Source of the DNA: Mesorhabditis belari
Taxonomy: Eukaryota; Nematoda; Chromadorea; Rhabditida; Rhabditidae
Direction of reading: 5' to 3'
Assembly (NCBI GenBank): GCA_958450365.1
Contig: CAUEEP010000917.1
Location: forward strand, 1,078,001-1,142,000
Length of the DNA: 64,000 nucleotides
Below, piece by piece: positions 288-60,148 of the stretch. The notes beneath the pieces are model-generated. The model was not told the DNA's origin, searched no databases, and was given only the letters and a program-made list of their open reading frames with translations. The position numbers were made by a program, and so were the translations under genes. Within the stretch, counting starts at the first letter, position 1. Each line of letters opens with the position of its first letter.

Positions 288-683
288 CTGGATGTCACAG
301 TAGCCTTTGGGTATAAAAGAACGTCAATAGCTATGAAATTTGAAAATTTGGTTTTGCCGATTCGAGTTCGGCTGGTTTTAAGCAGGGTTATTTCGGATCT
401 AAGTGCTGTATTCTGATTCCTACCTTTGGATATAGGCTGCTTGTTTGAATTTGGTTTTGCCGATTCGAGTTCGGCTGGTTTTAAAGCAAATGAAGCGTTA
501 TTTCAAGATTCTAAAAGCTGGACTGGCGATTCTGGATGTCACAGTAGCCTTTGGATATAAAAGGACGTCAATAGCTATGAAATTTGAAAATTTGGTTTCG
601 ACAATTCGAGTTCGGCTGGTTTTAAAGCAAATGAAGCGTTATTTCGGAATTCTAAAAGCTGGATTGGCCATTCTGGATGTCAC
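288..683. repeat. Local tandem array with motif
   Basis: Copies of a unit containing CTGGATGTCACAGTAGCCTT, a TATAAAAG-like string and GATTCGAGTTCGGCTGG follow each other, with motifs at 288, 532 and 673. The last interval is 141 bp, the modal spacing of the whole domain; the first is 244 bp because one copy is partial. Confidence 0.8.
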
Positions 684-1480
684 ACCTCAAGTTTCCAGGG
701 GAAATTCGGGCTGTAGGCGGGTGGATGGAAGGGGAAGGAGCCGAACGGGAGGTGGTTAGGCGGAGAGAAGTGGGCGCCGTTTTGCGGGCAAGGAGAGCCT
801 GGAATTTGAAATTTTTTTTTGTAAATCGCCAAGCTGGATGGTATTTGGCAAAAGTTTTGATGTAATCACCAGAAAAAAATTGTTTAAAAAATTTCAAAGC
901 TTAAATGTTCAGAGTTGAAATTTTTCAAGTGTTCAAAATTGGTTTATCGTTGAAACTTCAATAGCCAAATGTTGTTGTGCCATCCAGGATTGACAAATAT
1001 TTTCTTAAAACTTTGAAATTTGCATACCTGAAGGAGAAAAGTGAGCAGTCTCGATTTTCGGGTAGAGAGGCGGGGGAGAGACGCTGAACGGCCCATTGAC
1101 AAAGGGATATGCTGGGGGGAGGGCCTGGAAATGAAAAGAAACTTTTTTTTGAGCAATATAAGCCAGTACTTATAAGTAAATGTTCAAAAATTTACATTTA
1201 ACTATGGTTGAAACGAGTTCATGGCTATTTATGGTAATTTTTATGGTTAAATGAATATAAAAATCTTATTTTCGTCGATTCTGGAAGTCACTCTACCTCT
1301 TGGAATTCTTGTTGTTGCAGAACGCCTTGTAAGTACTGAATGTAGCGAGCCGCCTCGCGGACTGTGTCCACCTAAAATCGAAAAAATTAGCATAAAAGTG
1401 GAAAAATTTTGAGCGCATAGTTGGAGCTGGAGGTCACTACGCATTTTGAAATTAAAATCTATCAAATAATCGAAAGTTTC

Positions 1481-1548
1481 ATGTTAGCCTATTGGTAGTG
1501 GGCGCCACTGCTTCCAGTCAAACGACCCAGGTTCGAGTCCGCGGGCAG
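1481..1548 (+). repeat. tRNA-derived (SINE-like) element
   Basis: A box A-like string (TAGCCTATTGGTAGTGG) is followed about 40 bp later by box B GGTTCGAGTCC. The acceptor and T stems do not pair well, so this is a degenerate tRNA-derived repeat rather than a working tRNA. It shares TATTGGTAGTGGG with the copy at 2744-2806. Confidence 0.55.
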
Positions 1549-2743
1549 GTTTTTTAGTTTTTTTTTTTTGGTTTTTTTGCTTTATAAGGCTAACTAGCTT
1601 TTTTTGCACCCACTTTGGACATTTTCTTGTTGCCTCCGTGCGTGACTCTTTCTCGTAATCGCTCATACATTTGATTCATCTAAAACAAAAAAAATAAAAA
1701 TTTTTTTAAATGCCAAATTTTCAAATCTAAAACTTTTTTAGGTGTTGTGACATCCAGAATGACAAACCGTGTCTACTCGACGTCGTTCGCGTTCATTCCG
1801 ACGCTGTTTCTGGGGTGGAAGCTTTGTGCCAGGCTTGAGTGGGGCCATGATGTGAAATCGAAAGCGAAAAAAATCGAGTTAAGAAATGGGAGAGCTCTGG
1901 AGGGATAGAGAGAGAGGATGGAGGGATGGAGATTAGTGGAACAAGTGGTTTTAGTTGATATGCGGGGGATGGAAGGGCAGAGGCTGGAGGCGGAGATGGT
2001 AGGGGGCGGGGCTTAAGGGTATCCTTGGTCAAAAACCTTTTTGCGGCAAGGGTTCAAAGGGGGGTTTTTGGGAAGTAAAGATGGGTAAACTCAGGGCGAA
2101 AGTCAAGGTCAAACGCACTTGAGAAAAGCGAGACTTGGCTGGCGGTGGCTGGCGGTGGGGCGAGTACAGTAGCCTAGAGTCGGTTAGGGAAAGCCAATTA
2201 TGCAAATTGAGAGTAAACAAAAAGTTTAGCCGCCAAAAGGGTAGTGTGACTTCCAGGATGGTCAAAGAAAAAACTAAAAACTGAAAAAAGTGAAGCTACT
2301 GAGTGGGAAAGCTAGGGGATTCGAATCGTCAAAATCTAGCCAAATCGAAAATGTTAGCTGAGAGAATCTCCAGCTAAGGGAATCTAGTGTGACTTCCAGA
2401 ACGACCAAAAATCGATTTTACAACTTAAAAACATAAATGTATAGGCGTAAAAGTCGTAGGGAAAAAATGAAGAAAAAGAATTTCTTTAAATTCTTGAGAT
2501 TGACCTCTATAATTCCCTCTCTTTGCTTCAAAAATTATGCCAATCTTAGCTTAGAGACGAAAATTCGATTTGATTGGCGAAAAAGCGATCGCTTTTGACA
2601 CTTCCGAGAAAAAGAAAGAGTTTGCCGGGTTTTTTCAAATCTAAATTTCGATATTTTTGCTGAAATTAAAAATCCTTCAGTTCTGGATGTCACACAAAAA
2701 TTTAAAGTGATAAAAGTTCAAAAAAGAAAAGCAAAAAATTTTA

Positions 2744-2806
2744 TAGGGGGGTCGAACCAGGGTGTTGCGACTGGTAAAACCGACCCACTACCAATACACT
2801 GAACTT
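2744..2806 (-). repeat. tRNA-derived (SINE-like) element
   Basis: On the minus strand it reads GTATTGGTAGTGGGTCGG and later GGTTCGACCCCCC, matching box A and box B spacing. It is related to the element at 1481-1548. Stem pairing is poor, so a functional tRNA is unlikely. Confidence 0.5.
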
Positions 2807-3018
2807 TACTTTGTGGAATTTAGGATTTCTTTTTAAGCCAAATTCTTGTGTGACATCCAGGATGTGCAAAAATTTGAATGAATCCTCGAAAGAGCTCTCG
2901 AAAAGTCGCGGATACCCGAGAAATCTGCCACTCGTTAATTTCCGAGCAAAAATTGGCGTTTTTGAGCTCAATTCACTGAAAAACCAGGTGGTTTCTTTTG
3001 AACTTCGAGGGAATTATT

Positions 3019-3343
3019 GAAAAAGTGATGGCTAGGGGCTTTTTTGGATGAGAGAGGGGGGATAAAGGCATAGCCTCATTTTCCATGCTTGATTTTACAG
3101 GACTGGTTGATTTTACGAAAAACTGGATATCCTTTGATTATTTTATTCATCGAATAGTTTAATCTGGATATCAGTGCATTGAAAAAGTGATGGCTAGGGG
3201 CTTTTTTTTGGAAAAGAAAGGGTGGATAAAGGCATAGCCTCATTTTCCATGCTTGATTTTACAGGACTGGTTGATTTTACGAAAAACTGGATATCCTTTG
3301 GTTATTTTATTTATTGAATAGTTTAATCTGGATATCAGTGCAT
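3019..3343. repeat. Tandem duplication, 162-bp unit
   Basis: Two nearly identical units start with GAAAAAGTGATGGCTAGGGG at 3019 and 3181, and a third truncated start lies near 3344. Each unit ends in the motif-like CTGGATATCAG (3164, 3328). The unit length matches a minor class of motif spacing seen elsewhere. Confidence 0.85.
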
Positions 3344-6003
3344 TGAAAAAAAGTGAAATTAGATTAGAAAAGTTGTTTTTTGAAAAGGGTGATTGTTGAG
3401 AAAAGAGATCAGGAGTTAAATTCTCGGCCTACTAGGCCTACTCGAATTCTTTTTTTAAAATTTATTAAATCTGGATTGCACATGAGATATTGGAAGGGTT
3501 TTAGAAGAAGAACTAGAAGAATTTTTTGGTAAAAATCGAAATTTTGGTCGACAATCGACACTAACCCTTTTTTTACTCGTTTTTGAATTGAAATGAGTGT
3601 CCGAATAAAATCAGAGCCAATCCTGGAACGCACTAAGCGCATTAGCCAACTCAAATTATCAAAAAGAGACTAAATTGGTGTCAGCCTATTTCACAACCAG
3701 ACTACCGTAACCCGATTGGTTTCCATCTGATAGGTGAAGTTCTAAAGCCCCGTTTTCTCCAAAATTTTGCATTCATTCTCCCTTGTGCCTTCCAGATCTC
3801 GGATTTCCGGGGTTTCAAAGCCATTCTGCATGTCATCAGATAAGTTTTTCGTCAAAGACAATTTCCGGTGCCTAGCGATTTACAATCGATTTTTACAATC
3901 ACTCACAAAAACGAAAACAATGTCATTGTCGACTCTTGTGACATCCATAAATATCAGATTTAAGAAAATAAAATCCCAAATCTCAGTTAATTTTCGAGAA
4001 AATCAACCAGTCCTAAATTTCTAGTACCAGAAATGACTCGATTATCTTCCCTTATCCTTTTCTTCAATATCCGAGCTCTCCTTTTCCTCAAGTGAGATCC
4101 AGTTTGCCGGGAAAGAAGGAAAGAACGGATTAAAGCCTTTCAGCGAATCAGGGAAACGAACCGGTTTTCGAAATTCGAATCCAATTGAGTTCGGTGGCTT
4201 AAAAACGTTAGAATTAAAGTAATTCTGGAAATTTAAAGATTTTTAGGGATTCTGGAGGTCACTAAGGTACTGGAGGTGAAAAAATTGTAACAATACCAAG
4301 AAAGCACAAGTACGGTTACTGTAGGCGGTTACTGTAGATGACCTGAAAAAGGTCAAGATTTAAAATCCGGGAAAAATCCCAAGTTTTTTAGCTAATCTGG
4401 AACGCACAGCTTTCAGAGGTGTCAATTTTTTGGCTTTAATTTCATTTTTAGTGAATCGAGTATCTCAAGTGCCACTCAACTATTGTATTAAAAATTTGAA
4501 TGAGATAAATCGTCGACCGATTTGCCATTCTTTTGCCCAGCTGATCCGCTAGCCACTTCTTCCCCGCAAAACACTCATCCCAAAGGGTAGCAAGTGCTAA
4601 ACAACGGCTCACAAATCTTTTCGCTCGTCAAATTTGCATCTGAACACTCGCCAGCCACTTTAACGACCGTTTTCTTTGGCAGCCATCAAATCTCTTTCAC
4701 AATTCGGCCATTCTGGAACGCACTTTACGAGTTTTCAATGAGATTTGATGAGTTTACGCAAATTTAGAGAATTTCGTTTTTGAAGGTTTTACCAACTCCG
4801 AGATTGGCAAAATTTTTTTCCCAAAATGGGATATTCGAATTTCTAAGATCTCCAAAACTCGTTGTGTTTTCCAACTTGAAGATTCGATAAGTTAAGATAA
4901 CAATTTGATGATTGATTTCTTTAGAAAAAGCGCCGAGAACGCGCCGAGGGTAATTAAACGAAAGATTGATTAGAAAAACTCGAAAAAGCAATAAACGAAA
5001 ACGATTCCCGTCGGCGAGCTGTCATCCAGGATGATCAAAAAAAAAAGAAAGTACAAACGATTTGCCCCAAATTGAGTCCTCAAATGGGTAGCAAGGCGGT
5101 AGATGGCTATCGCCTTCAATCCACTCGACCACCGACAAGTTTACGGGGTTTTTATGGAGGAATGGCTAACGCTGGAGGTCATTCGAAAATTCGGCACTCA
5201 AATTACCCGAGTTACCGTGCTTTAGGAAAAATTGACTTTACAGAAACAACAAAATGCCAATTGTCGAGGTCAACCGACGGGAAACTTCTGAAACGGCTGT
5301 CTTTTAGAGTTTTTTTTTGAGTCGGCACGGTAATCACAGCCTTTTTGAGAGGTGGGAGAAGAGAAAATCGAGCGCTAAGTGCTAAGCCCTTCCAAATGAT
5401 ACTTGCGAAATGAGTTGGCCGACTTTTTTTCCGATTTTCACAAGAAATTCGACAAATCAGGGTTACTGTAGTCTGAGCTGGAGCGCACGGGACATTACAA
5501 AACAATCTATGCAAATTTTTCGCTAACTTTCACTTTTGAGCTTTCGGCGATCAAGTTGCTCAACTTTTCTTCGCCTTTTTATAAAAAATACGACAAATGA
5601 GGGTTACTGTAGTCTGAGCTGGAGCGCACAGGACATAAAACAATCATTTATACAAATCTCAGAGCAATTCGAGATTTCCGATTTTTGTCGTCTAGAACAG
5701 TGAAAAGTCGATTTTTCTAAAACTTTCAATTTCCCATATTTCACAATTTTAGATTGTTCTGTGCGTTCCAGGATTGACTCTGGAGGCATTTCTGCTCAGG
5801 GCAGGTGTTGTTTTTTCCGAAAAAAATCGAGGATCTCATTCATCTCCTCCATTTCCTCCCCTACTGATCCCCGATTTGGATTGGGTTGAAATGAGAAATT
5901 TTGGTGGCAGGGGAAAGAAATGGATTGATGAATGATGAGTTAGAAAGAGGGGGAAGGGTTGGAAATAGTAAGAGATATTCAGGGTAGACCCTGAGGGTAC
6001 CCT

Positions 6004-6175
6004 TCATAGCCTGAGCCTAAGCCTGAGCCTGGGCCTGAGCTTGAGCTTGAGCCTGGGCCTGGGCCTAAGCTTGAGCCTGAGCCTGAGCCTGACTCTGAGC
6101 CTGAGCTTAAGCTTGAGCCTAAGCCTGAGCCAGAGCCTAAGCCTAAGCCTGAGCCTGGGCCTGAGCCTGAGCTAA
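6004..6175. repeat. Degenerate interstitial telomeric hexamer repeat
   Basis: About 170 bp of hexamers GCCTGA, GCCTAA, GCCTGG and GCTTGA. GCCTAA is the complement of the nematode telomere unit TTAGGC, so this is read as a decayed internal telomere tract. It lies in a triple-length gap (5761 to 6216) of the phased motif. Confidence 0.7.
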
Positions 6176-7591
6176 ATAGTGAAATTGAGCCGAAATCTTG
6201 TTAGCAGCAGCTTTCGTGACATCCAGCATCACCGAAAAATGTATTTTCAACCCTGTTAACCAATGCGGATATTTCTAAAAACCCTCAAACCTTTTCCACC
6301 ACTTTGGACTATTTTTCCGATTTGCCGATGACTGAATTTAACTTTTCGTTTTTTGTTTAGTGCGTTCCAGATCGAAAGTTCCCCGGAGTGGCAAGTCGGA
6401 TCCTTTGACGCAATACCCCATTTCGTCGAATTTCCGGATCATCCACTATTGCGCCAACACCAATTCACAGTTTTGTTCTCGAAAATCAGGAGAATGGTCG
6501 ATTTGCAAAAAGAGTGCCGCCAAGGAGAGGTGATTCGCTTGAGTTGGCGCCGATTCGATTGCACAAAACGAGAAAAGAGAGCCGATCAGAGTTAATTGAT
6601 CACAGGTGGCTGCGAGAATCGGGATGAGGCTCGGGAAACGCGAATTGTTCGCTTGAATTCGCTAAAAAAAGATTTTAACTTTAAAAACGCGTGATCTGGA
6701 GGTCATTGGTTAATTTGAAAAAAAGTTAGCGCAAAAATTCTTTAAATTTAAAAAAAAAAGTTGAGCGATTGAGCGAGATCAATTTTTATCGCTCTGATGC
6801 CATTTTTGGAGATTTCCTTTTTATCAATGCTCAAGCTGGAAGGCACATGGCTGAAATCTGAGATAAAATTTGGGGGTTGTCAAGAAAAAAGTTGGGGCCG
6901 AAGTTGGCACCGTCGACCCACTCCTCCCCACCGAGCCTGGACCTCCAGCAGTTGCCCCTCTGTCTCTGCACCGATCCAGCCAGCCATCTAGCCTCAAATC
7001 AAAGGGATCTAAGGATTGACCAATTCCTTAGATCAATTCTTTGCCTTAGCCAAGTCAAGCATTGGTTTATTTACCCAACTCTGACTTTCCCATCCCATCA
7101 ACAAGATCAAGAAGCCGGCCTCTTTGATCCGGCTAACATGTCAACATGCGCTCCACAAATAACGAATCAGCGGGAAATTTGGCGATTCGGTGGCTCGGCT
7201 GCGCGAAAAGGGCTCAGTCCTATATTGTTGCATAACGAGTTCATGGATAGGGTTGTGTTCGGCGAATGAACTCTTTCGATCACTCGTGTGCCTCCCAGGA
7301 TCGCCAAAACTTGTTTGATCTTTGTTTGATCTCTTTTTGTTTTCGAGGAAATGAGGTAGTCCTGTAACTTGTCCGTTTCACTCCTTTGTTCTTCGGTCAT
7401 ATCAGACTATGAGTCGGGATTATGCAATTTCGGCAATTTGGTGGCTCGATGAAAGTTCATGGCCTATTCACAGCCGTTTATACCACAGGCTTTGAGGTAA
7501 ACCGCTTTTTAGTTGAATATCTTACTTTGCGGGGGTACTGTAGATTTATAGATTTATAGATTTGATGAATTCAAAGCCACCGTAACCCAAC

Positions 7592-7886
7592 GTGACCTCC
7601 AGATAGACGAAAGAAAAAAAAATAATATAGAAATTATCAGAAAAAGCCAATGCAATCAAGTGGAAAGCTGTTGCAAAAATGTGCCTTCTCGTTTTCTAAA
7701 CTTTGCCTCAGTTTGGCGTTACCGTAACCCCCTGTGCCCTCCAGATAGACGAAAGAAAAATAATAATATAGGAATTATCAGAAAAAAACCAATGCAATCA
7801 AGTGGAAAGCTGTAGCAAAAAAGTGCCTTCTCGATTTCTAAACTTTGCCTCAATTTGGCGTTACCGTAACCCCGTGTGCCCTCCAG
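7592..7886 (+). repeat. Tandem array, 142-bp unit, three motifs
   Basis: Units with AGATAGACGAAAGAAAAA and TTTGGCGTTACCGTAACCCC repeat with motifs at 7592 (GTGACCTCCAG), 7734 and 7876 (both GTGCCCTCCAG). Both intervals are exactly 142 bp. The variable centre of the motif differs between otherwise near-identical units. Confidence 0.9.
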
Positions 7887-8629
7887 ATGGTCGATTTCGC
7901 GAAAGATACAATCAAAATGACAACAGATAACGATAGAAAAGCGGGGGGTGCGAAAAACTCAAGGCGCACCAGGTGCAGCGCCAATTTCCAATTACGCGAG
8001 CATTGGCGATGGGTCTCGTGCGCTGCAGCTTGGCCGAAAATATTGTTGTCGGGGCACGGGGGTTGCGTCATTCGCCGAGAAACGGGCCACTTTGGCTATT
8101 CACTCAAACAGAAGCATTAAAAACGAGGAATACAGCTTAATTAGCAACAAATTGACCTAGACAAATTGGCAATCGAAAAAATAAAAGAAAATTGGTTTCA
8201 CTAGGTGATTCTCTTTGTAAAAAAAACTGAATTTGAGCATTTTTTTTCAAGCATTTCGAGTTCACTGAAATTTTCAGCTTGCCAATGGGAATTTAAAAAA
8301 TTTAAGCTTTTAATTAGAGTATCTGGATGTCACAAGAGATAATGAAATCGTTTTTGACACGTTTTTGACATTTCAAAGTCGGATGAGTTACCCAATTTCG
8401 AGTTGGCGTTAATTGGCTGTGAATTGAGGCGACTGATCGGTCTTTTGATTCGATTTCTATTCATTCTGGATGTCATGTAATCCGAAAATTGATTAGAAAG
8501 AGAAAAAGTGTGGCTTTGTTTGATAGAGATCTACAAGGTCTATGCCAAATTACCGTCAATCACTTGAACGCGTGAGTTCGCCAAAAAGAAATTATCTAAA
8601 AATTGGGCTACGATCAAACTGGAAGTCAC

Positions 8630-9135
8630 AGGACATAAAAATATAAAATTTGTAGTTGTCTGAACATTTTGAAAGGGTACTGTACTCACTGGAGCTGAGG
8701 GTTACTGTACTGGCCCTACGAAATATCCAATTTATGGAATTCTCCTGATTTAACATATCCAAATTATAGTGTGACATCCAGATTGATAAAATCAGCCTTC
8801 AAAAAGTACGGTAACTTTAGCATTTTATAGTTTTACTCACTAAAGGAGTACGGTACTAATCCTGCTAAATATCCAATTCATAGACTCACTCGATATAATA
8901 TATCCAAATTATAGTGTGACATCCAGCTTGCTTAAACCAGCCTTCAAAAAGTACGATAGCTTTAGCATTTTATAGTTTTACTCAAGGGGTACGGTACCGG
9001 CCCTAGTAAATATCCAATTTATAGAATTCTCCTGATTTAACATATCCAAATTATAGTATGCCATCCAGCTTGATCAAGTCGGCCTTCAAAAAGTACGGTA
9101 GCTTTGGCATTTTATAGTTTTACTCATTAAAGGGG
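8630..9135 (+). repeat. Tandem array with motif, inverted copy downstream
   Basis: Units with CATATCCAAATTATAGTGTG and AAAAAGTACGGTA repeat around motifs at 8771, 8916, 9058 and 9202. The same sequence occurs inverted at about 10,325-10,740 (motifs 10417, 10559, 10710), giving a large inverted duplication with a spacer of about 1.2 kb. Confidence 0.85.
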
Positions 9136-10324
9136 TACGGTACTAGAACGGTAAATTTTCAAATCATTCTATTCGCCTCAGAAACCTATTCAAACTCCAC
9201 TGTGACATCCAGATTTAAAAGCACAACTTCTTGGCGGGTGATTTGCCCACTCGTAACCTCATTTCATCAATGAATAGATCAAATAATCAGTTCAAGGCCA
9301 TTTCCACTCATTCATTTCGACATCACCTGGCCATTTCACTCAAATCGTTCAAATTGGATGTCACTACGGGGTTTCCAATCAAAAAAATCAGTTCAAGGTT
9401 TGCGGTTTCGATCAGCTGGAGGGGAGGGTCAGGTTAAAGGGTACAGGGGTGAGCAAAGTACTCAAAAAGTTCTCAAATTGAAAAATCTATAAAGTGTGCG
9501 CTCCAGATCGGCTGAATATCAAAAATCTAGGAGCATTTATTGTACAAATGGCACCTAAACACGGTTGGTCAGGATACCGTACCCCTACTTTGATCAAAGC
9601 ACTTGAAACCTTCTCATTTCAACAAATTAAGGCAGTGTGAGCTCCAGATCGGTTGATTATCGAAAATAGAGTCGTACTTGTTTTGCAAATTATAACTAAA
9701 AACGGTTGATAAGGAAATCTCGCTGATTTTTTATGCTTTTTATGGAAAAATTTTATCTAAACCGAAAGGAAATGATTTAGAGATTTTTTTTTCGTAAAAG
9801 GAGGTGCAAGGGTTATTTCTTTTTTGATTTCTGCGTTTTGAGCAGGGTTGGGTAATTCGCTCTGAACGCTCCATTGATCAGCGATTTCCAGATTTCCCTT
9901 TGAACCCGCAAAAAGTGTGAATCTTGAGAATTTTATTGAAAAATTTCGGCAAATCTTCAATCCTGGAACGCGGTTGTGAGTCGGGAAAGCAATCTGCTAT
10001 TTGTCTAGCATCTGCTGCAAATCTGCTGCAAATTTGTCTAGCATCGAGTTCATTCAAAGATGCGAAACGAGTACTCATTAGAATGCGGCTGAAATTTGCA
10101 TGTATCAAAAATTTGAATTTAAAAACGGTGGTCCTGGATGGCACAGCACAATTTGAACTTAAGAAATCTGAAGAAAACTTGAAAATGAAAAATTTGAATT
10201 CAGCCCGTAATCTGTTGGCATTAAAATATAGCCAAAATTTGCATATATCAAAAATTCGAATTTAAAAATGGCCATCCTGGAACGCACACAGGTTTATTCT
10301 TTAAAATGAATCGTCTTAAACGGT

Positions 10325-20211: not shown

Positions 20212-20243
20212 TCGTATTGTGTCGTATTGTGTCGTATTGTGTC
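20212..20243 (+). repeat. Short tandem repeat TCGTATTGTG
   Basis: Three perfect copies of a 10-bp unit in the middle of otherwise unique sequence. Small; no function inferred. Confidence 0.8.
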
Positions 20244-21163: not shown

Positions 21164-21739
21164 GTGCACTCCAGAATTATTAAATATAAAGTTTCAATGA
21201 TTTTTCTTTAACAAAATTTCGAGAAAACAGCTTGTACTCGATTTTAATCTATGACTAAAGTTCAAATCAATCAATTCACTTTTTTATTAAATCAAATATT
21301 CCTAGTGACTTCCAGAATGGCCAAATATAAAGTTTCAATGATTTTTCTTTAACAAAATTTCGAGAAAACAGCTTGTACTCGATTTTAATCTATGACTAAA
21401 GTTCAAACCAACCAATTCACTTTTTTATCAAATCAAATATTCCTAGTGACTTCCAGAATGGCCAAATATAAAGTTTCTAAGATTTTTCTTTTAAGGAATT
21501 TCAAGAAAACAGCTTGAACTCGATTTTGATCTATGACTAAAGTTTAAACTAATCAATTCTCTTTTTTATCAAATCAAATATTCCTTGTGCACTTCCAGAA
21601 TGGCCAAATATAAAGTTTCAATGATTTTTCTTTAACAAAATTTCGAGAAAACAGCTTGAACTCGATTTTGATCTATGACTAAAGTTTAAACTAATCAATT
21701 CTCTTTTTTATTAAATCAAATATTCCTAGTGACTTCCAG
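21164..21739 (+). repeat. Tandem array, five motifs
   Basis: Units with AATGGCCAAATATAAAGTTTC and AAACAGCTTG repeat with motifs at 21164, 21305, 21446, 21597 and 21729. The fourth has an extra base (GTGCACTTCCAG). Intervals are 141, 141, 151 and 132 bp. Confidence 0.9.
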
Positions 21740-22096
21740 AATGGCTAAATTTTCAATTAAAATTTCAATTTCTTTAGAAAAATCATCATAAAATGCCTTG
21801 AACTCGTTTGATTTCGTTTTTTTCTTAAAACTAAAGATATTCAGCTATTTCCCTGTTGTATCTTCTATTCAATCCATTCTCTTTTCTCCCTTTTCCTTTA
21901 GCCTTCTGTTTTCGTATGCAAATATGGTTTTGGGAGAGAGAAAAAGAGGAAAGGTCGCCTTGGGGGTGTTGAAGTGAGCAAGAAAATCTCACCTCGACAA
22001 TCTCTTTCACAAAAAAACGCGTCAATACAAGTTTGCAAGCGATTCTAAGCGATCTGTAATGCATTTTTTCAATTTTTAAACTAATTTCTATTTTTG

Positions 22097-27590: not shown

Positions 27591-28417
27591 ATGAGCACGA
27601 CGATCTGGATCGATCCGAAAAAGTCAACGGAAACAATGAATTCTAATTATTCGAAAACTCGTCGTGCCTTCCAGGATGCCGTTTACGAAGCAAATCCGGC
27701 CTTGAAAACGATTCTCCGCGAGCCCCGGTTGGCAGAGTCGTGCGCGCAGTACGCGCCCTCGAAGAAGCGCGTCTCCATTGCCTCCAGTTTCGGCAATTCA
27801 GGAGATTATGCAACTTTCGAGAAACCTGGAGACAGGCAGACGCCAGACCGTGACCCAGAGTACACCGAGTACACGTCAAGCCAATTTGCACCGCGAGTCC
27901 CGACGACAGTAGCGCTGCCTCGAATTTCTTCAAATAGAGCCTCAAAAATTGCGTTAGACTACGCTGTGACATCCAGAACCGAGAAATCTTTGCTCATTCC
28001 GAGGCCTAGCCTTAAAATCGACTCTGAAAATCGTCGAGAAGCGATTTGTGCTTCATTTTTGCCGAAACCGGGCGATTTTTATGGAAATTCTCTTAAAAAT
28101 AGAGAAATTGGGTCGGAAATTGAAAAAGGAATTGAGAAGAAGCAATCGTTTGCAAGAAAATTACAGCACAAGTGCTCACTGAAGGGATTTAGAGAGGTGC
28201 TGGTGAGGCGGTCGAGGAGTTTGGCGGTACGGGGTGAGGTCGAGATGCGAGAAAGTAGTAAAGAGCCTCCGGTGAGGCTACGAGCGTTACCTGTGCGCTC
28301 CAGAAGGACCCCCGAGAAAGTGAAAAGCCAGGAGAGTTTGGGGAATTTCGAGAACGCGCGTCGTTTCGTGCAACGCCGCAGTGCGAGGGAGTTTTTCAAC
28401 GCTAGAAGCATTCTGAG
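27591..28417 (+). CDS. Probable first exon of long Rap1GAP isoform
   Basis: A frame open from ATG at 27,591 for 348 codons is far longer than any other in the first 49 kb and is GC-richer than its surroundings, as expected of coding sequence. If the exon ends at AG|GTTGGT (28,417) it gives 275 residues plus two bases, and joins in phase to the exon at 39,066. The protein is basic and Ser/Arg-rich with no domain I recognise. Oddly, three copies of the phased motif (27664, 27966, 28293) lie inside the frame, and a fourth (28434) falls just after the proposed donor. It could be a separate gene or a young or decayed exon; the link to Rap1GAP is inference from phase only. Confidence 0.5.
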
Positions 28418-28924
28418 GTTGGTGGGCTTTAAGTTGACATCCAGGACTTTAGAAAAGCTAAACAGAACTTTCAAATCGTTCTCCATTTCTCGCAAATCGC
28501 TCCATTCTCAATTCCATTCCAATGTGGATTTTTTGAAATTCGAAATTTGGATTTTAAATTATTTCATTGTTTTTCCTGACATCCATAATCGTTGGAAAAA
28601 GCTTTTAAAAAAAGATTTCTCAAGATTTTGGCAATAATATCGAAATGATAAGGAAAAGTCTCTCAAAATCCTCATTTTTTTCATTCAAAACTTTATCTCT
28701 TAATTTAATTTTCGTTTTTTATCATATCTACTCAAAAAAAAAGACTGATATTGTCTTTTGAATGGCTTTCTTTTTTGTCTTTCCGTCTTTCCATCTTTCC
28801 GTCTTTCCATAGCTTTCCATGCCTTTCTTTTCAACAATTTCTCTCCGAAATTGAGGGGAATTTTCGGTATCTCCTTTCGATTTTTGATCAAATGGATGAT
28901 TGGATCACGAGGGGAAATGGCAAA

Positions 28925-49550: not shown

Positions 49551-49870
49551 TCCAAGATTGTGTTTGACGAGATAAAGTTCGAGTGATTCTTGTAGAGATC
49601 AGCTTATTTTTATCCATTCTTAAACCGTCGAAATCCAAGATTTCAATTTTTACTCGAAAGCCCAAAAATCTTTCTTTTTCTAGATCCAGTGACTTCCAGG
49701 TTTTCCAGATTTTGAATTATATTTTTGAAATCTTTAAAAATGCGTTCCATATCCGCTTGATCTCAATCCTTCAAAGTTTTTGTCTCTTCTTTTGATCAAA
49801 ATCCATTTTTTACTTTTTCAATTCCTCTCGTGCGTTCCAAAAATCAAATTTCACTTTAAAAAACGATGTG

Positions 49871-49884
49871 CTTTTCCAGTGCGA
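49871..49884 (+). other. Likely SL trans-splice acceptor
   Basis: CTTTTCCAG followed by TGCGA and then ATG at 49,885. A 3' splice site within 5 nt of the start codon, with no phase-compatible upstream exon found, is the usual sign of spliced-leader addition in nematodes. It could instead be an ordinary acceptor for an unseen exon. Confidence 0.5.
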
Positions 49885-50880
49885 ATGGATGCGGACGCTG
49901 AGGTTCGGCACTATATGGACAAGCGGTATACGAGAGAGTACTCGAAGAGGAGGGGCATTCCCTGGAGTACAGCTGACTCTCGCTTAAGGGGATCACAAGG
50001 GAATTTGGCTACAATCAAAGAGCCATCAATTCCCAGTCCTGACTATTCGCCGATACGAGAGCTGGAGGGAAGAGCTGTCGAGGAGTTGGCTAGAGCAAAA
50101 AGTATGCACAGTTTAGAAGCGAGCACTTCAAAAATCGAGCAGCTCGACTTATCAAGACCTCAAAAAGTCAAGTTCTCGAAGTCGACGAAGAGCTTGAGCA
50201 AATCGAGTGATACTTTTCCAGAGTTGAACAACAATGGGACAAAGGGAGTGGACAGAGGATTGGATAGAGGAGTGGATAGAGGAGTGGACAGAGGAGTGGA
50301 TCGTACCCCGAAGTACCCTAGATCACTAGCCTACCCTGAGAAAACCCTAGACTCTAAGAAGCCAGATCAGACCTTGAATCTGAATCCCAACCTGGAAAGG
50401 ACCTTAGACAGGAGTTTGACCCTGGATCGGATCCCGTACCGTCACCCTGGCTCCGACCGCATTCTGAACTACCCTAGTCCAAGCCAATCCCTGGACCAAA
50501 CCCTGGATTACCCTGACCCAAGCCAGACCCTAGACCGTCAGCTTAGCTTGGACCGTACAGCAAACCGGGAAAAACTAAAGCGCTCCCGAATGAGCCTTCC
50601 ATCAAAAGAAGAACAATTCAAAATAATGGCAGCCGAAAAGCTCGTCAATGCCATGGAAAATATGGAGAAAGCAAAGAGGGGAACGGAAACAAAAATTCAT
50701 GGAAGCCATGCAGCAAGGAAAGGATCGAAATCAGCGCTCGAACTTTTTGGGGCATTATTCATCGGCTCTCGTAAAAGCATTGACTCGGAGAGACCGTTGC
50801 TGAAGAACTCTATCGTCTCCCCGCCAACCCTCATTTCGAGTACGGTCAAAGATATCGCGCTACGAGAGTTGCCGAGTGCG
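49885..50880 (+). CDS. RAP1GAP: Rap1GAP alternative N-terminal exon
   Basis: A single 996-nt exon encodes 332 residues, basic and Ser/Pro-rich, starting [20 protein letters not shown]. The middle is low complexity: [16 protein letters not shown] is a 12-bp minisatellite in frame (about 50,245-50,310), followed by many [11 protein letters not shown] repeats. Later [20 protein letters not shown] may form a helix. No domain recognised. The exon ends TGCG|GTGAGT in phase 0, fitting 51,374. It holds no clear phased motif, unlike the ORF at 27,591. It replaces the GoLoco exon in this isoform. Confidence 0.8.
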
Positions 50881-53800
50881 GTGAGTGAGGGATTTTATAA
50901 TTATGGAACGCAGTACGCGTTATCGAATAGGCAGAAGTGCTGTAATCCGTAAAAATATCTGATCAGTACTGGATTACGGTAGCTGGAGCGTTATTTAAGA
51001 AACAGATAACGGAAGCGTATGGTAAATGGCGGCTTTGGAAACTATGGGAGGCACTACAGATTATCCAATAGTTAGAAATACCGTAATCCGTGTAGAAATA
51101 TTTGGTCAGTACTGGATTACGGTAGCTGGAGCTTTTTTTAAGAAACCGAGAACGGAAGCGTACTGTAAGTGGCCGCTTTGGGAACTATGGGTGGCAGTAC
51201 AGGTTATCCAATAGTTAGAAATACCATAATCCAAAAAAATTTGCCTTGGGGTACTGTAGCTAATAGTGTTTTTTAGGAAACCGACCGAGTTTCATAAAAA
51301 ATTATAATACTAAGGAAATTAACATTTAGAGCTCCTTTGTGACATCCAAAACCTCATTTTTTTCAATTTTCAGGCCTCCAGCGCCGAGCGAAATCACCGA
51401 GACAACACGACGACCCGTGAAGCGATGAGAGAGGTGAGAAATTTTTCAAAAACTCAAGGTTTTGAAAAATGCTGCAAATTTAGAAAAACTCTATACGGAG
51501 TCTACGTGACATCCATTGAATGTCTAAATTAAAATAATTCTTGTTTTTCGATAGTAAAGACGTTCGGATTTACAGGAACCGTAACCCGTAGCGTCGATAG
51601 CGCTTTTTTACCTTTGTATATCCTAGAGCAATTTGAGACTTTAAAAACATCTACAATGTAAATCCTGGATGTCACATGCTAAATTTAGGGAAATTTCTTG
51701 TTAAAAGTACGGGCGCGAAATATAGCTACCGTAACCGGTCAGCTGACCGAGAGTCAATTTGTTACTTTTGTATATCTGACTTTGAGACTTTACAAGAGGC
51801 TACTGTGACATCCAGATTAAATGTCTAAATTAAAAAAACCGTACTATTTCATGCTAATCCTGATTCAATTTCGTTTCCAAGAAAGCCATCACAATTCCGT
51901 TAGTCGCTTTTTTTTCGTTAGTGGGTCGAAAACCTTTGAATTGAATGGGAATTGAAAGAAAAATGGAGAAACGAGAAAAGAACGGTTTGGAGAATCCGAG
52001 AATTGAATAGAAAAGTTTTCAATGAGAGGAGAGAGGGCCAATCTCAGGGGTTGAGGTCAGGGAAAGAGGACTGGCAAGAAAATAGGAAATCTAGCTTATC
52101 AAGTAGGCGATTTTAGATTTTAAAATAAAGTTATGGATGTCATGTAATGTATTTCTGCTTTCAAAATTGTCTATAAAGCTTTTTGGAGAAGGGCTAGGGT
52201 CAGGGTTAAGGACTGGCAAGAAAATAGGAAATCTAGCTTATCAAGTAGGCGATTTTAGATTTTAAAATAAAGTTATGGATGTCATGTAATGTATTTCTGC
52301 TTTCAAAATTGCCTATAAAGCTTTTTGGAGAAGGGCTAGCTCAGCCTCGGGGTCAGGGTTGAGGACTGGCGGGAAAATAGGGAATCGAGTTTGTCAAGTA
52401 GTCAATCTTAAGTTTTCAAGTACAATTCTGGACCTCATGCTAGCTATTTCTAAATGTGACTGGGCTAATAAGAGAATATTTCAGATGCTCTCCCGACCGG
52501 GTCCCTACCCACAAATCGTCACTCAATCCTCGGGATTCTGGATGGACGGTGAGTCTCAATCCTTCTGGATGAGGATCAAAATTAGACCAAGCTCCTTTCT
52601 GGAGGTCACATCACTCGTTTAGTGTTTCAAAAAGTGACTAACTTATTATTTATGCTACTAGGTACTGTAGGGTAAACGCCATTTCAGAGTTATGGCTTGA
52701 ATGGCTTGATTCGAGTCAGTGACAGATTTAGAGACTAGCCTGCGTTCCATCATTGACCAAAATTCCATTTTTAACGGCATTTTCTATCAATTCAAAGGAG
52801 TTATTAGAGTCAAATCGTGTTGGCCCGATTTCTGCAAAATTGAACAAAGAAATTGTGACCAAAAATCTTTCTAATCCAAATCCTGGATATCACACTTGAG
52901 ATCGAGCACGAGAAATCGATTCTATGAACGTTTTGGAATTTCTACTTTCAGGCGTGTCCAGCTCAAATCTAGCGATCGACGAGGAGATCGGGCAGAGCCA
53001 CTCGAATGCCCACCAAACAAACAGCTGTGCCCGGTTCAAGCTGGAAATGGATGACACCGGCAATTGCTATCGGAGGCATTTTTATGGACGAGTGAGTGAA
53101 GCGTAGACGGTTCACTTGAAAGGAACACCACGATTTTAGGAACACCACGATTTCTACGCAAACGATCCACAATTGGGCCCACTAGTGCTTTCGGTTCGCA
53201 CAGAAACCATCTCCTCGCAGGATCATTTCCGGATAATGTTGAGGACGAAACAGGGCACAATTCACGAGATCGTCCCGGCTAGTGGTGAGAAAAAGAAATA
53301 AATAAAAAATATGGAAAGCACTGGGTGTTAGACAAAAAATCAAGCCTAGTGACATCCAGGATGGCTGAATATTTTCGATTTTCGACAGTCAAGACGTTCG
53401 TTTAAAGCCACCGTAACCCGTCACGTCTATAGCGCTTAGCTACCGTAATCTTAGCTACCGTAGAGGCAACTTAGCTTAAGAACGCCAAAAATGTAAATCC
53501 TGGATGTCACATGAGATTTTGGGATTGTCAGAAAATCAGAAAAGTTGAAAGCAGTATATAGCTACCGTAACCCGTAGCGTCTAGAGCAAGATTACGGTAT
53601 ATCTACCGTAATCTTAGAGAAGACCTAGCTTGAAAACGTCAAAAACGAAAATCCTGGATGTCACAGGAGGTTTTGGAATTGTTTTTGATCAGAAAAGTTG
53701 AAGGTATACAGCTACCGTAACCCGTAACGTCTATACCCACTTATCTACCGTAATCCTAGAGGCGACTTAGCTTGAAAACGTCCAAAATGTAAATCCTGGA

Positions 53801-56800
53801 TGTCACATGAGATTTTGGAATGGTTTTTGAGTGGAAAAGTTGAAAGTATACAGCTACCGTAACCCGTAACGTCTATAGCGCATATCTACCGTAATCCTAG
53901 AGGCGACTTAGCTTGAAAACGTCAAAATGTAAATCCTGGATGTCACAGGAGATCTTGGAATTGTTTCAGAATAGTAGAAAGCAGTATAAAGCTACCGTAA
54001 CCCTGAGGCTGATCTGGACCTGGCTCTAGCCAAATCTCTGGCAAGCTAACTCCAATAGAATCTCTCTGTCGTTTATGTAAATTGTAGACTTGAAAGCTTC
54101 ATTTTACCGTATCCATTAGCTACCGTAATCCCCAAAAAAAGCAATTTCAGATCTTTTGAAAAAAAACTCTCTTTTTGTAAGGGCTTAACTGAAAAACGGC
54201 TTTCTTTTTAAACGACTACTGTAATATTAACCAATTTTTAGCATTGGCTGACAAGCCATCCGCGTCTCGTATGGCCCGACTGCTCTGCGATGAGGTGTCC
54301 ACGGATAAATTCTGTCCGGTCGCTTTTCCGGGTGGTTCCGAGAAAATTGTCGAGTGAGTTTTGAAAAATTTGAAAATTTTTGTGCAATCTGGAACGCACA
54401 ACACAAAATTAGTGAAAAAAATTGAGGAAAAATCCGAAAAAAAAATTTCGCTACAGTACCCCAAATCGTCTATAGTCCTAAAAAATTGGCGAAAATTGAG
54501 TTAAATGGAATTTTTTTTTCCGCTAAAGCTGCGTTCTGGAAAGCATGTGACCCAAATTTGAATAGAAACTCGGAAAATTCGGCGAGTTACCGTAAGCCAG
54601 GGAAGTGATTTTTATAGTGCGCCTATCTACCGTAATCCTAGAGAAGACCTAGCTTGAAAACGTCCAAAATGCAAATCCTGGATGTCACAGGAGAGTTTGG
54701 GATTGTCAGACAATCAGAAAAGTTGAAAGCAGTATATAGCTACCGTAACCCGTAGCGTCTAGAGCCGCTTATCTACCGTAATCCTAGAGGCAACTTAGCT
54801 TAAAAACGTCAAAAATGCAAATCCTGGATGTCACAGGCGGTTTTGGAATGGTTTTTGAGCGGAACAGTTGCAAAATAGTTTCTACCGTATACGCAGACAA
54901 TTACATTTACTCTTAAATGCAAATTTCTTTAGATACGACGAGCACGTGCTGACGAACACCTACAAATTCGGTGTGATCTACCAGAGAAAGGGTCAAGTGA
55001 CAGAAGAGGAGCTATTCGGGAACGCGATTCCGTCACCGGCTTTCGAGGAATTTCTGGGGATACTTGGGGACACGATCGAGCTGCAAGGATTTACGGTGCG
55101 TTGAGTTATTGTCATGTAATTTTGAGCATCCTGGGAATCATCCGTCAAAAGTGTAAATCCTGGATGTCACAGGAGATTTTGGAATGATTTTCGAGTGGAA
55201 AAGTTGAAAGTATACATCTACCGTAACCCGTAACGTCTATAGCGCTTATCTACCGTAATCTTAGAGAAGACCTAGCTTGGAAACGTCCAAAATGCAAATC
55301 CTGGATGTCACAGGAGGTTTTGGGATTGTTTTTGATCAGAAAAGTTGAAAGCAGTATATAGCTACCGTAACCCGTAACGTCTATACCCACTTATCTACCG
55401 TAATCCTAGAGAAGACCTAGCTTGGAAACGTTAAAAATGCAAATCCTGGATGTCACAGGAGGTTTTGGAATGGCTTTTACGAGGATTATTCTGACGGATC
55501 AGTTTCTAGCCTGGCTTCTGGTCTAAACCTGCCTACAGAACTTAGGACTCGCTTAGAATATTCTTGGCTACAGTACAGTAACCCTGGCTATAGTAACCGG
55601 ATGTTTCAGCCGGTCTCGAGGCCTATAAGGGCAGGCCAAAGCTCGCGCAAATTTTCAGATCTGAATTCTGACCAAGACAAGCCAAAACCTGAGTCTAAGG
55701 CTTAAAACTAAACCGCCACAGTTTATGCAAAAGTTTTCAGCGTTACCGCGGAGGTTTGGACACGACGCACGGGCAAACGGGTCGCCAAGCGGTTTACACG
55801 GATTTTCGCGGTCGTGAATGCCTCTTCCACGTCTCCACGATGCTCCCGTTCACCGTTGGAGACACGCAACAGTTGCAGGTGAGATGGATGCGATTTTTCT
55901 AGCACAATCCCTCAGCTGTGCTCCAGATCAGCTAACAAAGTTGAAAGATTTTTGGAAAGAGAGCGCGATACGATAGAAATTTTGAGCCGAAAGAATCGTC
56001 AAGAGTACACCCGAGTACTAAGTGCTCCAAATTCCGTTTCGAAGTGTCGAAACTTTCTAGTGACTTCCAGATCGGCTAGAAAGCTGCTTAACTTTTTGAT
56101 ATCTAGCGTGTACGATAGAAATTATGATCGGAAAGAATCGTCAAGAGTACACCTGAATACTGAGTGCTCCAAATTCCGTTTCCAAATGTCGGAACTTTCT
56201 AGTGACTTCCAGATCGACCAAAAAGCTCATAAAATTTCGTTCTCTCTTTGCAGATATGCAAATTTTAAGCGAGTGAAAGTAAAGAGTACAGATTCGTACT
56301 AAAAGCCTCTAATTCTCTAAAAAATCAAAATTCTAGCGTAAACGGCACATCGGAAACGACATTGTGGCCGTGGTTTTTCAAGAGGAGAACACGCCATTCG
56401 CGCCCGATATGATCGCCTCGAATTTCCTGCACTCTTACATTGTTGTGCAACCGGTTGACGCATGCACCGAGAAAGTTCGCTACAAGGTCGGCTTTTTTCT
56501 AGCCAATTAACAAGTGTGACATCCAGGATGAGCAATAAAATTAAAAAAACCCCTAAAATTAACTACAAAGCATCTCTTGGCCGTGGTTAGACTTCAAGCT
56601 GATTTATCTCGAAATATTGGTTTTTAAGACTCGAGATTTCAAAAAAAGCTCCTCCTGGGTGTCACCGGATCCGAATTCGTCAAAAAAATGATTTCAAAGC
56701 TTTAAAAAAATTTTGTTCAATTTGGTAGAAGGGGTGTGTTTGGAAAAGATGGGTTTTAGGTGGCTGTAACGGCTCGCGATGATGTTCCATTTTTTGGCCC

Positions 56801-59669
56801 AACCCTCCCGGCACCGCCAATCTTCCGAAGAGGCCAAGATTTCCGAAATTTCCTGTTGACGAAGTTGATCAACGCTGAGAATGCCGCGTACAGGAGTACG
56901 AAATTTGCGAAACTCGCTGTGAGTTTTTTTGGCGATTTTAAAGGAATAACTAGCTAGTGTGATGTCCAGAATCAAGATTTTTCGACTCAAAAGTGACTAT
57001 TGACTGAAACGCATAGGGTATACTGTAGAGAGAACGTTTCGGTACTGCCGTCCAATTCAAGAAGACCCCATGATCCAGATTTAGATGAATATTTCTTGAG
57101 TGTGACTTCCAGGATGCCCAAATATCAATTCGAAATTTCAGGAACGCACTCGCAGCTCCCTGTTAACGGACCTATTCGATTTCCTGAAGCAACGAGCCGA
57201 ATTCTACGGTTTACCGCTTTTGGAATCGGTCGAATTGCCGCCACCGTCCACTGGGATCATCCAATCCGTTAAAAAAGCGCTGAGTGGAAGGTTTGTAAAC
57301 GAAAATTCTTGAAATCATCCGTTTCAGCTCCAAAACCGACAGCAATTAGGGGTAAATCGGGTGCATGCTCATTTTAGATATTTTCCTTTATCTACAGACT
57401 CCAAATGAATATTTTTTAGAGATTATGGATGTCACAGCATAAAGCTACAGTAATAGAATGATAGATTGTCGTTGAAAAATATACTATGCAGCTAGGATTG
57501 CTGTACAATAAAGTACAGTCTCGTAGCTTTAGCCAAACCATATGTTATCTAAATTTTCTTAAGTTATGGATGTCACAGCATAAAGTTACAGTAATAGAAT
57601 AGGCTGTCGTTGTAAAAATATTTACCTATGTAGCTGTGATTACTGTACGACAAAGTACAGCCTCGTAGCTTTAGCTAAACCATATGTGATCTAAATTTTC
57701 TTAGATTATGGATGTCACAGCATAAAGCTACAGTAATAGAAAAATAGATTGTCGTTGAAAAATATTGTCCTATGCAGCTAGGATTGCTGTACGACAAAGT
57801 ACAGTCTCGTAGCTTTAGCTAAACCACATGTAATCTAAATTTTCTTTAGTTATGGATGTCACAGCATAAAGTGACAGTACTAGGAGGCGGGTTTTCGGGC
57901 TTTTGTTTACTCCGGGGTCACCCTGCTTTAGGGATAAAACCTTAGTTTTTTGATTTCTTGAAAACCCTTTCTGAAACTTTCCTAGCATATCGTGTGCGCT
58001 CCAGCTTGGCCAATGCTAAAGTTTCAGATCGCGGTCGGTGTCCCAAGACGTGAACGGTGCGTCTACGCCGACAGCGCGGACCACGTCGATGTCAATGCCG
58101 CAACGACAGTACACAGCTCCACCGAGGCGAATCGCACACTCGGAGACTCTCTCGAAATCGAGCAGCTCTTCGCAGGACAGCCGCGAGAACGGCCAGCACT
58201 CACCGCCGCATTTGCCCGACGATAAAGAGTTAGTTTTAGGACTGGCGCTTTAAAAAGAGATTGCTTGGGCGGAATTTGAAATTTTTTGAAAATTTGGCGG
58301 TTTTGGATGTCACTGTAGATATCTAGCTGAAAATCGCCGTCGTTTCAAGCGTTTTAAATTTCGAGAATCTACGCTTTTCGATTATCCAAAAAAATTTCAG
58401 ATCTCGCGACTCGCTTTTCGACGAAATCGATTCGGCACACGTTTCAACTGGCTCAAACGGAGTGCGAGGCGTTCAGAAAAGAATCATTCACCGCCATTTA
58501 TCATCCTCGATCCACAAGCACTCGCCGAGTCAGACAAGAGAGCGGTGAGTATGACAGAGTTTCAGGACTGGCCCAAAAACTCTTTCCACAAGCTAGGCAT
58601 TCTTTAAATAAGAGCAGAGACACCCGTTCTGGATGTCACAGTAGACAATGAAACCGTTTGCAAAACATATCTTCTCGATTTTAGTCGAACCGACTGGGAG
58701 AGCTCGTCAACGGAGGAAGCCGAGCAAGAGCACGACTCCGACACGGGAATGGTGGGTTTTTGAGAATGGATTACCGTAATCTGGAGCGCACATTAGCTTT
58801 CTACGCATAAAAGATGTAAAGATTAGTGTATCTCAAAATGAGTTTTGGTCGGGGTTACGGTAACCGGGTCACTTTATAGGAGTTTATCGAGATCTCAAAT
58901 CTGAGTACGGTAGAGCTTTCGTTTTACAGTGTGACCTCCAGGATTACTGTATTCGGCTTTAAAAAATTGAATTCAAGCTGGGAAAAATGGTTTTTCTTGC
59001 AGGAATCGCTTTCGTCGGCGGATCTGCACTCAAATACGCGTTTATCGTGTTCATTTTGTGCTGAGGACATGCTGTTGACGTCGCCAGCAAGGCTGGAGAC
59101 GATTCACGGAGTCGACAATCATCAGCACATCATTTTAAAGCACAACGGGCACAATGGAGAGGTCAAAAGCGGGAACAGGTACAAAATATCAAAATTTCCA
59201 TAAAAACAAAAACTTTTGCATTCAGAGGGCACTGTGCCTTCCAGGATCTCGATTTATAATCAAAAAAACCAAAGTTTACAAAGAATTTCGTTTTTTTCAT
59301 CTTGTCATAAAATTTGGCTCAAAACTGATTAAGCAAAATTTTTCCAAAATCGAAATTTTCTTATTCCTAATTCTTTGATGCACTCCAGGACTCAATGATT
59401 TCGAAAAATAAAGCCGAAATCTCATTTCTAAATCAAGAAAATCCTTCAGAACCGCTCACCTGACCGACGAGTTGAACCGGGCGAACGAGGAGATCGCCCG
59501 GCTGAAGCGGCTACTGAAAACGGCACCGGACGGGCATTCGGTGGCCACCGTACACCAGGCTACCGTGCACCAGCCGGCCACAGTACATTTGCCGAGGTCG
59601 ACCGCCGAAGAGGTCACCGTGTCCCAGCAGCCGAACACCACCAACATCACGATCGTGTCAGCGCAATGA
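49885..59669 (+). CDS. RAP1GAP: Rap1 GTPase-activating protein (Rap1GAP), 16 exons
   Basis: Rap1GAP speeds GTP hydrolysis by Rap1, switching off Rap signalling at membranes. Exons read here: 49885-50880, 51374-51433, 52485-52548, 52952-53091, 53140-53284, 54242-54353, 54933-55095, 55741-55878, 56337-56486, 56760-56918, 57142-57290, 58028-58228, 58401-58544, 58685-58751, 59003-59178, 59450-59669. All phases match and sum to 3,084 nt, 1,027 residues. Family blocks appear in order: [82 protein letters not shown]. The Asn of RKRHIGND (about residue 613) is the catalytic asparagine thumb of RapGAPs. One donor is non-standard (AAG|GTCGGC at 56,486). The N-terminal 332 residues are not conserved family sequence. 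Confidence 0.93.
50245..50310 (+). repeat. Coding minisatellite, 12-bp unit (GVDR)
   Basis: Five tandem copies of GGAGTGGAYAGA and variants, in frame. Copy number could vary between individuals without shifting the frame. Confidence 0.85.
50960..51240 (+). repeat. Intronic tandem duplication, about 145-bp unit
   Basis: Two units with GTACTGGATTACGGTAGCTGG and ACAG(A/G)TTATCCAATAGTTAG. The motif slot is degenerate here (CTGGAGCGTTA, CTGGAGCTTTT). The intron is 50,881-51,373. Confidence 0.85.
52080..52420 (+). repeat. Intronic tandem array, about 140-bp unit
   Basis: Units with GGAAATCTAGCTTATCAAGT and TATGGATGTCATGTAATG repeat 2.5 times upstream of the exon at 52,485. The motif form is ATGGATGTCAT, a two-base variant of CTGGATGTCAC. 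Confidence 0.85.
52485..54353 (+). CDS. RAP1GAP: Rap1GAP N-terminal (dimerisation) half of core
   Basis: Four exons (52485-52548, 52952-53091, 53140-53284, 54242-54353) encode [45 protein letters not shown], then [12 protein letters not shown] and FCPVAFPGG. These align in order with the stretch of Rap1GAP that precedes the catalytic domain. The intron between the second and third exons is only 48 bp, typical of nematodes, while the others carry phased motifs. Confidence 0.92.
53350..55460 (+). repeat. Intronic motif arrays around exons 6 and 7
   Basis: Units with AAATCCTGGATGTCACA, GCTACCGTAACCCGTA(A/G)CGTC and TATCTACCGTAATC recur at about 53501, 53655, 53798 and 53938, then about 54679 and 54825, then about 55160, 55301 and 55448. 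The same unit occupies both introns on either side of the exon at 54,933-55,095, so copies have moved across or been converted between introns. Confidence 0.85.
54933..56918 (+). CDS. RAP1GAP: Rap1GAP catalytic domain exons
   Basis: Four exons (54933-55095, 55741-55878, 56337-56486, 56760-56918) encode the RapGAP domain, about residues 506-709: [99 protein letters not shown]. Lys, His and Asn of RKRHIGND, the residues known to matter for Rap1 GTP hydrolysis in this family, are all present, so the enzyme should be active. Confidence 0.95.
57142..59669 (+). CDS. RAP1GAP: Rap1GAP C-terminal tail exons
   Basis: Six exons encode [14 protein letters not shown], a RSRSVS segment like the RSRSQS of vertebrate Rap1GAP (a likely phospho-regulated region), Ser-rich stretches, SDTGM|ESLSS similar to the family's DTGLES block, and a last exon with [19 protein letters not shown], predicted to form a short coiled coil. 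A tiny in-phase alternative exon at about 57,328 would end the protein early after SSKTDSN; I consider it chance. The stop is TGA at 59,667-59,669. Confidence 0.88.
57425..57862 (-). repeat. Intronic tandem array, 141-144-bp unit
   Basis: Four units with GTACAGTCTCGTAGCTTTAG or close variants and TTATGGATGTCACAGCATAA; motif analogues at 57425, 57566, 57708 and 57852, followed by an unrelated unit whose motif (57994) keeps the 142-bp step. Confidence 0.9.
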
Positions 59670-60148
59670 TGATGATGCAATAACATTTCCAAATGTTACA
59701 GTGCGCTCCAGATTACCCTCTGGATATCTTTTTAAGTCTTAAAATTTTCTTTATCACCGTCTAAAATGGCCAGTCCTGTATGGTCAGAGAAATTTTGAAA
59801 TTTTAAAAATGCAAAATTTTTTCTCAAAACTTTCCCATTCTTTTCCGTGTTCTCCAGATTGGCCAAAAGCTTGCCGTTTTTTTTTGTGAAAAAATTCGAA
59901 ATAATTCGTTTATCTCCTCGCGAACAGTGCAATGTGTCAAAAAAATTTTGTACCTCGACAGTTTTTTTTTGTGAAACTTTTCGTTTTCTAAAGCCCGGTT
60001 ATTTCTACCGTATGCCTTGTGGGATTTGATTTTTTGCATTTTTCTATAAAAAAATTCATTTCTTTCACTGCCCTCTTTTAAAAATCTTTCAAAAATTTTG
60101 ATGAAATTTTTTTGTTTTTTTTTGATTTTTTGGTGTTTCATTTGGTTA

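Follow-up and report, generated by a model that had tools for sequence, protein, structure and literature searches.

A conserved 11-bp box at nucleosome-sized steps in nematode intron DNA: a candidate DNA-encoded nucleosome array

The window, here meaning the whole 64,000-nucleotide stretch analyzed (C694:1078001-1142000, or 0.03% of an assembly of 207.6 Mb in 714 contigs), contains a long array of short boxes, each lying at a fixed phase within an AT/GC ripple of about 10 bp. Judged from sequence, this array is probably a DNA-encoded, tightly packed series of nucleosomes, each carrying at its dyad a box that a protein would bind, and its nearest known kind is the PATC intron DNA of nematodes.

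Exact matches to GTGNNNTCCAG were found at 173 places in the window (102 on the forward strand, 71 on the reverse). A box matrix of 20 columns, refined from these matches and used at a cut-off of 11 bits, detects 246 sites, 137 on the forward strand and 109 on the reverse, as compared with 2, 3, and 1 sites in three first-order Markov simulations. The regions defined by these sites are:
282 to 59863, both strands: array of 246 boxes with the core GTGNNNTCCAG, located by the 20-bp matrix and compared with Markov controls
2246 to 2399, forward strand: example pair of boxes 143 bp apart, with cores at 2246-2256 and 2389-2399
59864 to 64000, no strand: box-free DNA past the array, according to the matrix site list

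Fifteen of the 4-kb bins contain 13-22 sites each, and the last bin contains none. The initial annotation had described hundreds of evenly spaced copies of an 11-bp motif beginning at position 288. The copies and their even spacing stand, with 246 sites against 1-3 simulated and a main class of 138-147 bp, but the beginning does not: upstream of the window the array goes on, and three adjoining 10-kb pieces, scanned at a matrix cut-off of 12 bits, contain 44, 28, and 13 sites.

The downstream part of the array occupies the introns of a Rap1GAP gene:
49880 to 59669, forward strand: 3' part of the Rap1GAP gene, with 16 exons read by hand from Rap_GAP matches and exon borders, and a stop codon at 59667-59669
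55722 to 55878, forward strand: exon encoding part of the Rap/ran-GAP domain (Pfam PF02145, E = 4.3e-15)

The frame at 55.7 kb is above the Pfam family cut-off, while an open frame at 54.9 kb matches Rap_GAP below it (E = 6e-4). Further Rap_GAP pieces were found at about 56.3 and 56.75 kb, and solved Rap1GAP structures match frames of the window (7e-15). In this one gene, with exons read by hand between AG/GT borders, no boxes were found in 3,108 bp of exons, as compared with 36 in the 6,681 bp of introns between them. The array ends about 190 bp past the stop codon.

An unconfirmed coding-like frame at 27591-28499 contains three boxes and has no Pfam match; it is perhaps an alternative first exon. 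Another piece of the same contig (L018) is densely coding, presumably for a DEAH-helicase-like protein, and contains one box site in 10 kb. Nothing was found in the window by ARAGORN.

The 245 intervals between adjacent boxes fall mostly into a few classes: 138-147 bp (101 intervals), 150-156 bp (25), 157-175 bp (13), and 278-350 bp (60). The remaining ones are shorter than 130 bp (5), 176-277 bp (4), or longer than 350 bp (35), and two, of 130 and 131 bp, lie between classes. Nineteen local tandem arrays with a period of 141-145 bp and 1.8-4 copies were detected in the window by TRF, so part of this regularity results from recent duplication. The following three belong to them:
21182 to 21750, forward strand: tandem array with a unit of 141 bp in 4 copies (TRF, 93% matches)
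53461 to 53966, reverse strand: tandem array with a unit of 142 bp in 3.5 copies, in a Rap1GAP intron (TRF and sequence)
57423 to 57883, reverse strand: tandem array with a unit of 144 bp in 3.2 copies, in a Rap1GAP intron (TRF)

The first of these appears to be a recent duplication of entire box-bearing units. Regular steps were also found among units without detectable homology (865 pairs, referred to below as non-homologous). Their distances form one-step clusters at 141-143, 151-154, and 162-165 bp and two-step clusters at 282-288, 294-296, 304-305, 313-315, and 322-327 bp. The two-step class has a period of about 10.4 bp (0.26, as compared with a 95th percentile of 0.188 and a maximum of 0.228 under jitter). 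The periodicity is weaker in the three-step class (0.206; control 95th percentile 0.173, maximum 0.231), and no helical stepping of non-homologous units was found at distances of 560-700 bp. The one-step class, which has few peaks, is best fitted by 11.3 bp. Both the interval classes and the helical stepping of non-homologous units agree with the earlier claim that the spacing is not random. At two places in another locus (L023, 3797-4563 and 9754-9899) the box spacing alternates between about 50 and about 94 bp, giving two boxes per 144-bp step.

In total, 522 units from the analyzed DNA, a set that leaves out three overlapping or allelic loci, were assigned to 335 sequence families, of which 260 have a single member. 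The view that the boxes lie in unrelated surroundings is borne out by these many families, but not by the duplicated units of the 19 tandem arrays. Homologous units are mostly close neighbors: of the 225 homologous pairs on C694, the contig of the window, 168 are no more than 2 kb apart and 7 are separated by more than 20 kb, and only 2 of the 335 families are common to C694 and other contigs. Apart from these, distant copies were not found to share sequence beyond the box. This distribution points to array growth by local tandem duplication rather than by a mobile family.

The search for homologous partners was run on box-masked units, and the presence of a box was thus not a criterion of selection. 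From 359 raw pairs, 199 were retained after reciprocal duplicates and pairs with a flank identity outside 70-98.5% had been dropped; the mean flank identity is 85%. In these pairs, which within one family are not independent, the core has 44 substitutions in 1,592 positions (2.8%) and the flanks 3,285 in 21,682 (15.2%), or 5.5 times less change in the core. Gaps were found in 0 of 2,189 positions of the 11-bp box and in 208 of 21,890 flank positions. The motif has therefore been kept while its surroundings diverged, as had been proposed at first sight of the array. Positions at AT peaks of the ripple changed in 11.7% of cases and those at troughs in 17.0%.

The three central bases of the box (NNN) are not free. 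The commonest variants, ACA, CGT, CGC, and ACT, account for 170 of the 246 boxes in the window, and adjacent boxes share the same NNN in 65 of 245 pairs, as compared with 38 expected. This perhaps reflects two sub-specificities or shared descent.

When units are aligned on the box, AT dinucleotides oscillate with a period of about 10 bp (a ripple of about 10.2 bp), to about 57 bp on the right and about 54 bp on the left. The peaks are located near -46, -36, -26, -14, +15, +25, +36, +47, and +57 relative to the box. The same fixed phase was found in 250 singleton families and at 61 isolated sites, which shows that the ripple is not due to duplicated units. For 335 family representatives, the peak-minus-trough difference is 0.286, and none of 300 random-offset controls exceeds 0.022; for the 42 families confined to other contigs it is 0.273, against a control maximum of 0.055. 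Profiles from two disjoint sets correlate at 0.84, and at no more than 0.37 when wrongly shifted. With a template built outside the window and the box masked, 86% of the 246 window sites score above the 95th percentile, although some training families from neighboring pieces are possibly homologous to window units.

In 304 families, the right flank contains 2.96 bits of information as AT/GC class, as compared with 0.95 and 0.60 as base identity. In the left flank of the same families the class contains 2.90 bits, and identity is partly retained (1.97 and 0.90). What the ripple retains is thus mainly the AT/GC class and, to a lesser degree, the individual base. With a decayed common ancestor, base identity would be expected to be at least as strong as class; with class the stronger, the ripple looks structural rather than ancestral.

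The ripple is also coherent over longer distances. With boxes masked, its coherence in arrays is 0.0128 at lags of 130-260 bp and 0.0068 at 260-400 bp, as compared with 0.0027 and 0.0024 in other DNA. These longer lags separated array from other DNA; short-lag autocorrelation of AT dinucleotides did not. For runs of at least four A or T in the units (n = 1,486), the best period is 10.25 bp. Thus AT/GC alternation of about 10 bp, at a fixed phase to a centre, was found here as is characteristic of positioned arrays, and histones would very likely sit on the ripple. An AT ripple of 10 bp, of short range, is still present in two 10-kb pieces with 0 and 1 box sites (L010 and L018) and hence extends beyond the box arrays.

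Boxless steps lie on the same lattice, because two-step gaps without a middle box keep the ripple: when 61 such gaps were scored with the masked template from outside the window, the fit oscillated with a period of 10.25 bp and was best at distances of 142, 153, 163, and 173 bp to the box at the edge of the gap. The same held for 112 gaps scored with a pooled template.

The position of the box within the particle is indicated by inverted neighbors. Among convergent neighbors 130-175 bp apart, 15 of 29 are at 139-143 bp; among close divergent neighbors, 20 of 46 are at 138-146 bp and two pairs at 131-132 bp. A particle centre 5 bp off the box would make the closest approach of convergent and divergent neighbors differ by about 20 bp, and no such difference was seen. 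As both orientations take the same step, the point of symmetry of the spacing is the centre of the box. Ripple symmetry taken alone gives candidate centres at 0-0.5 (r 0.36) or 5-5.5 (r 0.45), with a slight preference for +5. Spacing is symmetric about the box and the ripple is asymmetric, its +57 peak having no partner at -57. At half-integer turns from the dyad, the minor grooves of AT-rich DNA are turned toward the histones. Ripple peaks near 15, 25, 36, and 47 on either side of the box agree with this rule if the dyad is at the box; the missing -57 peak does not. On balance, the dyad likely coincides with the box.

The initial annotation had proposed that a sequence-specific protein is placed once per nucleosome-sized step. 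The conservation of the box, its fixed phase in the ripple, and the stepping of about 10 bp support this proposal, and we have high confidence that such a protein would read the box. In the mechanism suggested here, the ripple would position nucleosomes and a putative factor would bind the box at their dyads. At the conserved GTG and TCCAG halves, about 3-5 bp either side of the centre, the major groove would point away from the histones, which the variable NNN at the centre would face, so the factor could read the box while it is on the nucleosome. New units would arise by tandem duplication of DNA one nucleosome long, after which selection would retain box, ripple, and spacing but let individual bases drift. 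A full nucleosome core particle covers about 147 bp. With a step of 142 bp, the cores would be slightly unwrapped at their ends or would alternate between registers.

A stronger form of this proposal, plausible but tentative, is a dyad code: a lineage-specific factor would read the 11-bp box through the outward-facing major grooves of wrapped DNA at the nucleosome centre, and box and ripple together would write a nearly linker-less fibre across gene bodies, its centres 14, 15, or 16 helical turns apart. If so, genes would carry their own chromatin fibre within their introns. By analogy with the PATC intron DNA of C. elegans, it is possible rather than probable that the ordered, nearly linker-less array serves to hold long introns in a defined chromatin state; it would then likely protect the gene against silencing in the germline or against spurious transcription.

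Readings of the array as transposon, pairing-centre, or centromere DNA have less support than the nucleosome-array reading. According to the first of these, the array consists of old 142-bp units derived from a satellite or transposon; the box would serve recombination or a transposase, and the spacing would be inherited with no selection at the level of nucleosomes. The 19 tandem arrays, the shared NNN of adjacent boxes, and the mostly same orientation of neighbors in the 140-147 bp class would be expected of such units. This origin is nevertheless unlikely, because the families are local, the AT class outlasts base identity, inverted neighbors take the same steps, and the core is conserved between duplicates.

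The distribution of the box in the genome bears on two further readings. The pattern GTGNNNTCCAGNAT has 3,988 matches genome-wide, 72 of them within the window, as compared with 36 for the reversed pattern. The expectation that a genome scan would give a density above control is thereby borne out, as it is by the matrix sites of the window, which lie far above the simulations. Among the places listed by the pattern searches, sites are clustered in stretches on a subset of contigs, and box variants with mixed NNN occur on many contigs. Six of seven arbitrary 3-kb samples of the genome contain no boxes, and the seventh (L030) holds five. The same box runs with the same spacing were found on the paired contigs C159/C569, C427/C553, and C491/C688, which are probably uncollapsed alleles. 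The one pair compared, C159 and C569, is 99.2% identical across 8 kb, with 0.46% substitutions; core and flank changes (0 of 256 and 18 of 3,506) were too few for a comparison with power.

Two of the parallels named in the initial annotation, pairing centres and centromeres, fit less well than was supposed. Meiotic pairing-centre DNA would have a ZIM/HIM-8-like zinc-finger protein on dispersed boxes in chromosome-end domains. The short box, clustered on part of the contigs and lacking in most samples, resembles the ZIM/HIM-8 motifs of C. elegans in being repeated across large domains. Those motifs are, however, 12 bases long, chromosome-specific, and enriched near one chromosome end, and the available portion of the source does not mention their nucleosome phasing (PMC9071541); here one and the same box, with its NNN variants mixed, is spread over many contigs, which makes a pairing centre improbable. 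In holocentromere units, the box would recruit CENP-A nucleosomes, the role proposed for a 19-bp box in Meloidogyne. The present array resembles the Meloidogyne and CENP-B box-like satellites, as far as the available portion describes them (PMC9673304), in keeping a short box within divergent repeats, and its nucleosome-scale spacing would suit this reading. Those repeats form satellite families on holocentric chromosomes (PMC9673304, same portion), whereas the units described here are mostly single and intronic, with an AT ripple and helical steps. As the array fills introns, spares the exons read, and occupies only part of the genome, unlike a satellite centromere, we regard this reading as highly improbable. 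An RNA-level signal, such as intronic splicing elements or structural RNA, would account for boxes that are intronic and lacking in the exons read, but it is extremely improbable given the nearly equal use of strands (137 and 109), a 10-bp stepping that is a property of the DNA helix, and the lack of any Rfam family at gathering score in the window.

The nucleosome-array reading has closer relatives. PATCs, which the initial annotation did not name, just as it did not name the ripple around the box, are periodic, A/T-rich stretches of Caenorhabditis introns and UTRs that act against silencing in the germline, according to the available portions of two reports (PMC6468775, PMC7725773). The array resembles them in its A/T runs in a register of about 10 bp, coherent here over several hundred base pairs, and in its location in introns, as seen in the one gene Rap1GAP. 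It differs in having a conserved box in each unit, at fixed phase and with a spacing of 14, 15, or 16 turns; neither a box nor a nucleosome-length step is mentioned for PATCs in those portions. In budding yeast, the preferred nucleosome repeat lengths are 151, 161, and 171 bp (PMC5807854, available portion), close to the 152, 163, and 173 bp found here. The yeast values were measured on chromatin and involve no box in the portion available (PMC5807854), whereas the present ones are read from DNA alone and include an additional, shorter main step of 142 bp.

Among the titles and abstract openings listed from an open-access library, outside which the original PATC papers lie, no account was found of nematode introns that carry a box at the dyads of their nucleosomes. 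A search for the box strings returned unrelated titles among the matches listed, and a term search in the available portions of PMC4595182 and PMC11230420 gave nothing relevant. The ripple alone would be PATC-like; what we have not seen described is a conserved box that centres the ripple units and is spaced by helical turns in otherwise unrelated DNA. The sharing of box, ripple, and 10-bp steps by hundreds of sequences that have no relation to one another would constitute a natural experiment on selection for nucleosome position at near base-pair precision. It touches on two long-standing questions: how far DNA sequence dictates nucleosome positions, and what role PATC-type intron DNA has.

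Past the array, the box-free tail of the window contains a nested inverted repeat (62813-63373), with arms of 77, 49, 32, and 28 nt that are 80-97% complementary; it resembles a short non-autonomous DNA element.
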